Positions 17,274-20,478 of a stretch of 64,000 nucleotides of DNA are shown in pieces. The first letter of the stretch is position 1, and each line of letters opens with the position of its first letter. The DNA is taken from NCBI RefSeq assembly GCF_028278985.1, contig NZ_JANQTA010000017.1, positions 1-64,000 on the forward strand. The letters are read 5' to 3'. Under the pieces are notes generated by a model that saw only the letters and a list, made by a program, of their open reading frames with translations, did not search any database and was not told where the DNA came from. This DNA is from Candidatus Nitrosopumilus sp. (GTDB lineage Archaea; Thermoproteota; Nitrososphaeria; Nitrososphaerales; Nitrosopumilaceae). The position numbers and the translations under genes were made by a program.

Positions 17274-19037
17274 ATGAAATTCCAAAATAAAGTCGCTCTA
17301 GTAACAGGAAGTGGAACTGGAATTGGTAAAGCCATTGCCACTAAATTTATTGAAGAAGGAGCCAGTGTAATTATTCTTGGAAGAAGAAAAGAGCCACTTG
17401 AGGAAGCATCAAAAGAATTAGAAGCAAAAATTCCTCAGGGAACAAACTCTACAGTTAGAATTTTTGCAGGAGTTGATGTTGCTGACGAATCTGCAATGAA
17501 TAACATGTTTGATACTTTGAAAAATGATAATGTTACTGTTGATTACATAATTAACAACGCAGGAGTTTCAGGTCCTGTAACTTGCTTTGCAAACTCACCA
17601 GTTGATGAGTTTAAGAGTACAATTGGAATTCACCTTACAGGTACTTTCTGGGGCTCAGTTCAAGCACTAAAAGTAATGAAAGAAGGAGGAAAAATAATTA
17701 CAATTTCTACATTCTTTACTGAAGAAAGACCATTAGAACAAAGACCATACAGATTCAGAAGTCCATATACTGCATCACAAGGTGCAAAGAATAGACTAGC
17801 TGAATGTATGTCATGGGAGTTAACTGAAAAAGGAATTGTTTCTATTGCAACAAATCCAGGACCAGTGCACTCTGATAGAATTTACAAAACAGTTTATCCA
17901 AAAGCTGCAGCAGAATTTATGAGAGTTAGTGGATTTGAAGATTTAACTCCAGTCCAAGTTGAAGAAGCAAGAGATGATTTGCTAGAATGTATTTTAGCTG
18001 ATGGAATTGACAAAGAAGGTATTGCCAAAGTTGCAGAAAAATTAGCAAACGGTAGAGACGTTGCAAAATTAACTGAAACTTATACAAACTTATTAACAAA
18101 AATCAAAACAATTGCAGAAAAAGTTCAAAACAACACATCACATATGATTGCAAACCAAGAATTTTTGGCACAATCACAAGTTTCAGAAATGGTTCTTAAT
18201 TTGTGTGATGAGCAAATTGTACAAATTCTCAATGGTAAAGTAATTCCAGGTGACAGAGTTTTCTATCCAGTTAAACCACACATCGGAACAACAACTCCAG
18301 GTGTTCATCAACCAGACTTCACAGGAAAAGCAGTAGTCTTTACAGTTGATGGAACAGACAAAGCAGATGCTGAGAGAGTAGAATTTTTGGCACAACATGT
18401 TGAAAAGAATGGAGGTAAAGTTGCATGCTTTATTTCAAAAACAACACCAAATGATGTTCAAGAATCAATTAGTAGTAAATTCCACTCACATGCAGTAGAT
18501 ATTTCAAATCCTGAAGAAGTCCAGAGATGGCTAAACACTGCAAAGACAAACCTTGGAGACATTTTAGGCGTAATTCACGTTACTGGAAAACTTCCAGAGG
18601 TAGGCAAATTAACAGAACTAAACAGAGCAGGCTGGGAAGAACTAGTTGCTAAATTCATCACCACACCAGCAATTGTTGCTCAAAGAACACTAGAACATTT
18701 TGTTCCAGGTGGCGGTAAAGACCCAAGACTGTTCAAAGATAAAACAGGTTCCATTATGATCATTGGTCCAGACTTACCAGTAGGACGTAAAGTTTCAGGA
18801 ACTCAGAGAGCTCAAGTAGAAGTTTTCAGAGGAGCCCTTAGACCATTTACAACTACAGTAAACCAAGAACTAAGTGATGTTCTAAAATCAAACATCAGAA
18901 TGTTTACAGTATTTCCTGGTTCTGTTACAGGTTCTGAACCAGACAATCAAAAAATTGCAGATGCATTTAACTTCCTTGTATCAGAGAATGCTGCTTCATC
19001 ATCTGAAGTAACTTTCTGTGTTGACGAATCAAGATAA
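17274..19037 (+). CDS. Double short-chain dehydrogenase/reductase protein (MCR N-domain-like)
   Basis: A 587-residue cytoplasmic protein made of two SDR units. The first (1-260) has the cofactor motif TGSGTGIGKAIA, NNAGVSG, and a Ser/Tyr active site (TISTFF, PYTASQ), but the usual Lys of YxxxK is Gln. The second (about 340-587) is a degenerate Rossmann fold without the Gly-rich loop. This order, and segments such as NPGPVHSDRIYKTV, resemble the N-terminal half of Chloroflexus malonyl-CoA reductase, which reduces malonic semialdehyde to 3-hydroxypropionate. The substrate is not proven. Start ATG 17274 begins MKFQNKVALVTG. It is followed 2 bases later by a MaoC-like gene. Confidence 0.8.
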   Translation: MKFQNKVALVTGSGTGIGKAIATKFIEEGASVIILGRRKEPLEEASKELEAKIPQGTNSTVRIFAGVDVADESAMNNMFDTLKNDNVTVDYIINNAGVSGPVTCFANSPVDEFKSTIGIHLTGTFWGSVQALKVMKEGGKIITISTFFTEERPLEQRPYRFRSPYTASQGAKNRLAECMSWELTEKGIVSIATNPGPVHSDRIYKTVYPKAAAEFMRVSGFEDLTPVQVEEARDDLLECILADGIDKEGIAKVAEKLANGRDVAKLTETYTNLLTKIKTIAEKVQNNTSHMIANQEFLAQSQVSEMVLNLCDEQIVQILNGKVIPGDRVFYPVKPHIGTTTPGVHQPDFTGKAVVFTVDGTDKADAERVEFLAQHVEKNGGKVACFISKTTPNDVQESISSKFHSHAVDISNPEEVQRWLNTAKTNLGDILGVIHVTGKLPEVGKLTELNRAGWEELVAKFITTPAIVAQRTLEHFVPGGGKDPRLFKDKTGSIMIIGPDLPVGRKVSGTQRAQVEVFRGALRPFTTTVNQELSDVLKSNIRMFTVFPGSVTGSEPDNQKIADAFNFLVSENAASSSEVTFCVDESR

Positions 19038-19039
19038 GA

Positions 19040-19489
19040 ATGAAAAAATTCAAAGAATTTCGTGTAGGAGATACATTTCAATCCACATGCAGTATTTCAG
19101 ATAAAGAACTTGAAGAGTATCTTAGCTTCTCTAGAGTAAGAAATTCATTCTTGGATGAAATGAAAAAAGGCGAATCAATGGTTTCAGGTAGGGCAATTTT
19201 ATCAAGAATGGAAGGAGAATTTACAAGATTAAGTCAGATTTATGGAAACCATATTGTCTTTATTGGAACAGACGGAGATCCGGAATGGGAAAACAGAAAC
19301 ACACGATTTCTAAAACCATTAACAACAGATCAAGTTCTAAGATTAAAGTTCACGGTATCTGGAAAAGAAGACATTGATGAAGAATTTGGCAAAATTGCAA
19401 TTGATTTTGAAGGACTGAACCAAGATGGTGAAACCATAGTTCTATCAAAAAAGAACATTTACAGAATTAAAAAAGAGCCACCAAGATAA
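19040..19489 (+). CDS. MaoC-like hot-dog protein
   Basis: A 149-residue protein starting MKKFKEFRVGDTFQSTCSIS with the strand pattern of (R)-hydratase/MaoC dehydratases (F-x-x-G...). A clear D-x4-H dyad is not seen in its expected position, although IYGNHIVFIGTDGDPEWENR and the following NTRFLKPL resemble the active-site loop. It is 2 bases after the SDR gene, suggesting a joint acyl-CoA or thioester step. It could be a non-catalytic hot-dog. Confidence 0.65.
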   Translation: MKKFKEFRVGDTFQSTCSISDKELEEYLSFSRVRNSFLDEMKKGESMVSGRAILSRMEGEFTRLSQIYGNHIVFIGTDGDPEWENRNTRFLKPLTTDQVLRLKFTVSGKEDIDEEFGKIAIDFEGLNQDGETIVLSKKNIYRIKKEPPR

Positions 19490-19710: not shown

Positions 19711-20478
19711 CTAAAAAATCAATCCACCTTCTACGATGGAATCAAAAAACAATTTTCCAGCTGCAATCAAAATTACTACTGAAACTAGAATCTGCAAGTA
19801 ACGTTCTTTGATTTCAATGGATAACCTTGCGCCAACTAGTCCACCTGCAAATGAACCAATTGCTAAAAATCCTGCTTGTGTAAAATCAGGATGTCCAAGT
19901 AAACTGTGAGTTATAACACCAGATAAGGATGCAAACAACAAAATTAATTGAGATGTAGGGGCAGCTCTTTTCATTGCCATTCCCATTCCAACTACCATTA
20001 ATGGAACAAAGACGATTCCTCCACCAATTCCAAAGAAAGAAGAAATAATTCCTGCAAAGAAACTTGCACCCACTGCAAAAATTATCATTTGTATAGATAA
20101 TTTTTTTTCCTTTGATTCTAATTTTCTTCTCAAGAATATGTAAACTGCTGATGCAATTAACACCAAACCAAATAATATTTGAAAGATTCCGGGAGTAACA
20201 TCTGAAGAAATTAGTGCACCTAAAACAGTTCCAGGAATTGAAAGTAAACCAAGTTTAATTCCTAATGAAAATTCTATTCTTTTTTGTTTAGAATAAGAGA
20301 TTGTAGATGCTATGGCATTACTTAGTGCTGCAAACAAACTATTACTAGCAGCTGCAGTTGGAGAAAAACCAAGAAATGTTAAAACTGGAACAACAATTAT
20401 TCCACCACCAAGTCCAATCATCGAACCCAATATTCCTGCTGCGAATCCAAGTGGTATCAACCACAATTGATCAATCAT
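19711..20478 (-). CDS. TauE/SafE-family membrane permease
   Basis: A 255-residue membrane protein with about eight helices in two homologous halves. Each half starts with a G-x-GGG-motif: GSMIGLGGGIIVVP and SFFGIGGGIVFVP. TauE/SafE proteins export or import small sulfur-containing anions; the substrate here is unknown. Length is normal. Confidence 0.9.
   Translation of the reverse strand: MIDQLWLIPLGFAAGILGSMIGLGGGIIVVPVLTFLGFSPTAAASNSLFAALSNAIASTISYSKQKRIEFSLGIKLGLLSIPGTVLGALISSDVTPGIFQILFGLVLIASAVYIFLRRKLESKEKKLSIQMIIFAVGASFFAGIISSFFGIGGGIVFVPLMVVGMGMAMKRAAPTSQLILLFASLSGVITHSLLGHPDFTQAGFLAIGSFAGGLVGARLSIEIKERYLQILVSVVILIAAGKLFFDSIVEGGLIF

Follow-up and report, generated by a model that had tools for sequence, protein, structure and literature searches.

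A free-standing tandem-SDR protein is a candidate malonyl-CoA reductase of ammonia-oxidising archaea

Ammonia-oxidising archaea (AOA), among Earth's most abundant microbe groups, carry a free-standing tandem-SDR protein that, judged from its sequence and a structural model, may be the NADPH-dependent malonyl-CoA reductase of the thaumarchaeal 3HP/4HB cycle, perhaps also reducing succinyl-CoA. We give this assignment about an even chance of being right, and the protein is the best candidate in the present analysis for the missing enzyme. Its gene lies in a stretch of 64,000 nucleotides (hereafter the window) from Candidatus Nitrosopumilus sp. As a universal, single-copy and lineage-exclusive candidate carbon-fixation gene for AOA, it reduces the gene gap in the cycle to one expression-and-assay experiment; if the assignment is true, it supplies the missing marker gene for the thaumarchaeal pathway variant and bears on enzyme sharing between archaeal and bacterial 3-hydroxypropionate pathways.

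Malonyl-CoA reductase activity has been measured in extracts of N. maritimus, and its gene was listed as unidentified in 2018, as were the genes for succinyl-CoA, acryloyl-CoA and succinic-semialdehyde reductases (PMC6038301). In 2020 the malonyl-CoA reductase was described as not findable by homology (PMC6964070), and a 2026 marker resource has no malonyl-CoA reductase marker for the thaumarchaeal cycle variant (PMC12894919); the cycle's 3HP-CoA dehydratase has already been identified (PMC7845616). For the semialdehyde step, the authors who described Ca. N. cavascurensis proposed candidate SDRs with about 30% identity to Caur_2614 (PMC5797428), so the SDR idea is not entirely new. What is new, as far as the searched literature shows, is the assignment of malonyl-CoA reduction to the tandem SDR, its universality, and the residue-level match to bacterial malonyl-CoA reductase (MCR), whose C- and N-terminal halves we call MCR-C and MCR-N. 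The features of the locus, in window positions, are as follows.

17274..19037, + strand: tandem-SDR oxidoreductase, 587 residues, ATG start, candidate malonyl-CoA reductase of AOA
17274..17909, + strand: catalytic SDR domain, residues 1–212, with TGSGTGIG, Arg37/Arg38, NNAG and the active site
17709..17789, + strand: active-site loop, residues 146–172, family-invariant, with length and residues common to MCR-C; T146, F148, E151, P158, Y159, R162, Y165, Q169 (catalytic Lys position) and K172
17853..17909, + strand: NPGPVHSDRIYKTVYPKAA, residues 194–212, containing R202, the equivalent of MCR Arg215/Arg785
17910..18305, + strand: helical linker, residues 213–344, occupying the place of the MCR-C extra domain
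18306..19034, + strand: second, degenerate SDR domain, residues 345–587, without the Gly-rich loop and without the Tyr
19040..19489, + strand: small, weakly MaoC-like protein, 149 residues
19711..20478, − strand: TauE/SafE-type exporter, convergent neighbour, not claimed as part of the enzyme

Pfam adh_short matches the protein in two stretches (E 2.6e-42), bearing out the two SDR units that a preliminary description of this DNA had read from the sequence. Its observation that the second unit lacks the Gly-rich loop also holds, and the first unit keeps a normal TGSGTGIG and NNAG. In the second domain, which begins near residue 345, a register set by hand places Val515 in the column of the catalytic Tyr, where V, A, S and G all occur, and an invariant Arg519 at the Lys position; K506 and R512 are also invariant and R523 is nearly so. 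Conservation is greatest in the catalytic domain, where 90 of the 212 columns are shared by at least 49 of 50 aligned orthologs spanning three AOA families. At one locus (L042, genome G256) the SDR frame breaks after about residue 521 and an intact MaoC-like gene follows, reflecting a frameshift or an assembly error.

A sequence search of the PDB placed two full-length bifunctional MCRs on top (3e-34), with domain scores in the same search of 65 bits for MCR-C and 54 bits for MCR-N. The family profile matched the PDB MCRs at 1.5e-45, and profile-profile alignment covered 535 columns of MCR-C (4.5e-32) and 487 of MCR-N (5.5e-26). An AF2 model of the protein (pLDDT 74.6, pTM 0.77, with linker residues 239–296 poor) was built from an alignment that took in MCR-N and single SDRs and no MCR-C, and because of the MCR-N rows it may be somewhat biased toward an MCR-like domain arrangement. 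A model with MCR-C rows in its alignment was poor (pLDDT 49) and was set aside. Foldseek searches with the first model returned MCRs as all 25 of the best PDB matches (1e-24 to 1e-18), led by MCR-C at 1e-24 and MCR-N at 3e-23; the next match was 2et6 (1.7e-16), with single SDRs after it near 1e-12. Model and search together indicate a catalytic and a degenerate SDR with the fold of the MCR halves. In this structure comparison, which the preliminary description had proposed, the best match is MCR and not an unrelated SDR. The likeness it had seen by eye to the N-terminal half of Chloroflexus MCR is supported as kinship to MCR but not as a specific N-domain match: MCR-C outscores MCR-N in the sequence, profile and fold searches, and the long active-site loop is MCR-C-like. 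When only the catalytic domain is scored, glucose dehydrogenase and FabG-like SDRs equal MCR-C.

Among known systems, MCR-C (C. aurantiacus 8a8t, R. castenholzii 8hi5, P. dokdonensis 6k8u) is the top fold match and shares with the AOA protein the pairing of a catalytic and a degenerate SDR, the Thr/Ser-Tyr-Arg-Tyr-Arg substrate site, the long loop with F148, E151 and P158, and an interdomain linker. The AOA protein differs in having Gln for the catalytic Lys, Thr for Ser, a shorter linker, an archaeal host and a second domain without specific sequence kinship; it is also a free-standing chain of 587 residues rather than half of about 1220, with one tandem unit and one copy per genome in place of the four-SDR chain of bifunctional MCR. 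MCR-N (malonic semialdehyde reductase; 8hi6, 6k8v) is likewise a tandem SDR, with Thr at the Ser site and Tyr172, Arg175 and Arg215 as equivalents, but it has a short loop, no extra domain and a Lys, and matches more weakly. The tandem (3R)-hydroxyacyl-CoA dehydrogenase of peroxisomal MFE-2 (2et6) also acts on CoA esters, but its fold match is much weaker than that of MCR. The crenarchaeal ASADH-type malonyl-CoA/succinyl-CoA reductase performs the reaction proposed here in the same overall cycle, yet its fold is unrelated and AOA have no extra paralog of it.

At the residue level, none of the MCR substrate-site residues (Thr/Tyr/Arg/Tyr/Arg) varies among the 50 orthologs. T146 aligns with Ser731 of Roseiflexus MCR (RfxMCR), Y159, R162, Y165 and R202 align with Tyr743, Arg746, Tyr749 and Arg785, and Gln169 aligns with Lys753. 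Lys283, also invariant, aligns with the CoA-contacting Lys919 of MCR-C; no AOA residue aligned as a counterpart of Arg799 or Arg1164, the CoA-binding residues that go with the extra domain and SDR4 of MCR-C. In locus L063 the residue numbers published for Roseiflexus (PMC10470521) land on the residues they should, so the mapping is secure on the MCR side. In RfxMCR, alanine mutants of Ser731, Tyr749, Arg746 and Arg785 lost activity or had it lowered; the malonyl end is gripped by Tyr743, Arg746 and Tyr749, the thiolate is protonated by Tyr743-Arg746, Tyr743 belongs to a proposed proton relay, and the Lys919 contact comes from simulation only (PMC10470521). A further family-invariant segment, GPVHSDRIYKTV, aligns with PGPI-[ED]-S-[DE]-RI in MCR-N and PGPV-[ED]-G-[DE]-RL in MCR-C.

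These residues are rare among 84 other SDRs picked as near relatives: Y159 and R162 occur together in one, R202 in two, and Phe148 and Glu151 in one each. The span from Ser/Thr to Tyr is 19 residues in AOA, 18 in MCR-C, 13 in MCR-N and 10–15 in the other SDRs; F148 and E151 are common to the AOA and MCR-C loops, and the long loop with F148, E151 and P158 is common only to AOA and MCR-C in this sample. We rejected Y-x2-R-x2-Y as an MCR-exclusive motif, as a wider SDR set contains a single-domain family that carries it. The exception, L157, groups with 5unl, and these SDRs share Y-x2-R-x2-Y and an Arg at the position of R202 but have one domain, a Lys and a short loop. On these alignments the signature is not strictly MCR-only, and the long loop appears MCR-only within the sample.

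The substitution of the catalytic Lys of YxxxK that the preliminary description had seen in PYTASQ is real: all 50 orthologs have Gln169 at this position, which every MCR catalytic domain and 83 of the 84 other SDRs fill with Lys. It is also the counter-evidence to the mechanism proposed below, since the Lys753Ala mutation abolished RfxMCR activity; Lys182 of the MCR N-half has a role in the alcohol-forming step (PMC10470521). Lys172 (window 17787–17789) is invariant in AOA and is Gln in MCR-C, an apparent Lys/Gln swap with position 169, one helical turn apart. A FabI-like Y-x6-K reading was rejected, as the helix register in a hand alignment places Gln169 and not Lys172 at the catalytic Lys, and the FabI-like spacing is probably fortuitous.

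Tests by domain limit what can be said of descent. The second AOA domain matched generic SDRs at 2.4e-17, MCR SDR2 at 6e-5 and SDR4 at 3e-4 in domain-wise profiles, with E-values that are not strictly comparable, the generic profile being deeper than the other two. The match of the linker to the MCR-C extra domain, the K283-Lys919 alignment included, is not significant on its own. With a second domain nearer generic SDRs and no significant match in the linker, the tandem arrangement may have arisen independently. We rejected a common ancestry of the whole protein, as the full-length MCR-C profile match had suggested, because domain by domain only the catalytic domain carries signal. A tree from all columns united AOA, MCR-N and MCR-C in one clade (96/74); without the active-site columns this clade was gone and AOA joined two generic SDRs (90/90). 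AU tests accepted AOA with either MCR half (p 0.44), and Thr146 is the MCR-N residue where MCR-C has Ser. Given the domain-wise results, the dependence of the tree on the motif columns and the AU tests, we hold that the protein works like MCR with more confidence than that it descends from MCR.

The gene is carried once by essentially every AOA sampled and is exclusive to this lineage among the sampled Thermoproteota and three bacterial phyla. In a phylum-wide sample of 299 Thermoproteota genomes it was present in 58, all from three families (f1–f3) of the window's order, and was not found in the other 241. Among 150 genomes of that order, amoA and the tandem SDR were each found in 110, agreeing in 148; the two mismatches (G631 and G616) are fragmented drafts. 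The Fisher p of 1e-33 for this co-occurrence ignores that AOA are essentially one lineage, and since that lineage has many exclusive genes, agreement with amoA does not point to carbon fixation in particular. Searches of 251 Chloroflexota, 349 Pseudomonadota and 296 Actinomycetota, in which the best few candidates per genome were scored without a built-in positive control, gave no comparable full-length match. The preliminary description had held that conservation of the operon outside carbon-fixing lineages would refute its inference; every sampled genome in which the gene was found belongs to the ammonia-oxidising lineage, and a role in the 3HP/4HB cycle is likely. We rejected 4-hydroxybutyryl-CoA dehydratase as an uninformative co-distribution marker: genes of its family (PF11794) also turn up in roughly every second sampled non-AOA relative of the order (for example G298, G565, G572 and G580), and these relatives lack the tandem SDR.

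Neither of the other two known classes of the enzyme fits the missing step. The ASADH/ArgC family (PF02774) has exactly two copies per genome in AOA and non-AOA alike (19 genomes), leaving no spare ASADH-type reductase, and the ALDH family (PF00171) is absent from two near-complete AOA genomes, which excludes a universal ALDH-type reductase. A strong match of about 320 residues to Fe-ADH, which we read as the known malonic semialdehyde reductase, occurs in AOA of f1 and f3 and is missing from those of f2 (G184, G228, G240, G579, G583) and f56 (G561). The probable malonic semialdehyde reductase (Fe-ADH) of the window's genome lies on the window's contig about 65 kb from the tandem SDR (genome G000, contig C25, 83836–84243, − strand). 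Four of the five f2 genomes have two adjacent 4-hydroxybutyryl-CoA dehydratase genes; Ca. N. cavascurensis has such a pair and lacks Nmar_1110 (PMC5797428). By this gene pair and the missing Fe-ADH, f2 looks like Nitrosocaldaceae. No 3HP/4HB genes were recognised among the tandem-SDR neighbours looked at.

The preliminary description had inferred an alternative or related hydroxyacid step. Reduction of malonic semialdehyde to 3-hydroxypropionate (the MCR-N step), alone or beside malonyl-CoA reduction, would fit Thr146, the presence of the tandem SDR in the f2 and f56 AOA that lack a strong Fe-ADH match, and the earlier suggestion of Caur_2614-like SDRs (PMC5797428). We consider it unlikely, as the step most impaired by loss of the relay Lys should be alcohol formation, the long loop resembles that of MCR-C, the AOA of f1 and f3 have the Fe-ADH match in any case, and malonyl-CoA reductase would be left without a gene; it is this gene, and not that of malonic semialdehyde reductase, that makes up the gap. 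It is quite unlikely that the protein is mainly the succinyl-CoA reductase of the cycle, with malonyl-CoA reduced secondarily or by another enzyme: that gene was also listed as unidentified (PMC6038301), but the residues match MCR, which acts on a C3 acid substrate, and none of the evidence is succinyl-specific. The crenarchaeal malonyl-CoA/succinyl-CoA reductase catalyses both reductions, a precedent for a succinyl-CoA activity.

A different AOA substrate, such as acryloyl-CoA, an organosulfonate aldehyde or an acyl-CoA/ketoacyl compound, is improbable. Acryloyl-CoA reductase is likewise without a gene (PMC6038301), the SDR has a TauE/SafE exporter as its convergent neighbour in f1, in f2 and in one genome of f3, and the single-domain L157/5unl SDRs, of unknown substrate, share part of the signature; yet convergent neighbours are not co-transcribed, the long loop is common only to MCR-C in the sample, and the hand alignment puts Gln169, rather than Lys172, at the catalytic Lys site. 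Loss of the general-base Lys in all orthologs could also mark a catalytically dead or regulatory protein, which is very unlikely given that the catalytic domain, NADPH motif and Tyr165 included, is the most conserved part and a dead site would drift.

Returning to malonyl-CoA reduction as the preferred reading, we infer the substrate, the direction and the following mechanism from the architecture, conservation, residue matches and distribution. The first SDR domain would bind NADPH through TGxxxGxG and Arg37/38, with the malonyl carboxylate held by Tyr159, Arg162, Tyr165 and Arg202. Hydride transfer from NADPH to the malonyl-CoA thioester carbonyl would yield malonic semialdehyde and CoA thiolate, the latter to be protonated by the Tyr159-Arg162 pair in the way proposed for Tyr743-Arg746 in MCR-C. 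CoA may be held in part by the helices of the linker and by basic residues in the degenerate second domain. Gln169 may orient the nicotinamide ribose without the Lys proton relay used for alcohol formation, and because it offers no such relay the reduction may stop at the aldehyde, leaving malonic semialdehyde to the iron-type alcohol dehydrogenase. The Lys-to-Gln site would also offer an instructive example of how an SDR works when the canonical Lys is gone. More tentatively, it is possible that the free-standing Tyr-x3-Gln tandem SDR is both the malonyl-CoA and the succinyl-CoA reductase in all AOA, with the Lys-to-Gln change stopping reduction at the aldehyde; if so, two gene gaps in the cycle close together, and the enzyme type used in the thaumarchaeal cycle is also that of the bacterial 3-hydroxypropionate bicycle, not that of Sulfolobales.

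The MaoC-like gene starts two bases after the stop of the tandem-SDR gene, as previously described, and is probably co-transcribed with it in Nitrosopumilaceae; its MaoC identity is weakly supported. Pfam gave no MaoC match for the window protein (19040–19489), the profile of its family matched the MaoC-type PDB chain 1q6w at E 9e-4 over the C-terminal third, and no MaoC catalytic Asp/His or GDxNPxH-like motif was seen by eye. Among 43 Nitrosopumilaceae-type (f1) loci the gene adjoins the SDR in 38, and among seven f2/f3 loci in none. In L028, a locus of the window's genus, a remnant with its middle deleted, joining the N-terminal 28 residues to the C-terminal tail, lies 600 bases downstream of the SDR and indicates a recent loss within the genus. 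A MaoC-like dehydratase partner, as the preliminary description had proposed, does not fit these absences or the missing Asp/His; the protein is dispensable and may be accessory or structural. The TauE/SafE exporter gene (PF01925) is conserved more deeply as a neighbour than the MaoC-like gene, which in most f1 genomes lies between it and the SDR. The exporter gene converges on the SDR in many loci of f1, in all three of f2 and in one of f3 (for example in the window at 19711–20478, − strand, and in L047, L048, L043 and L045).
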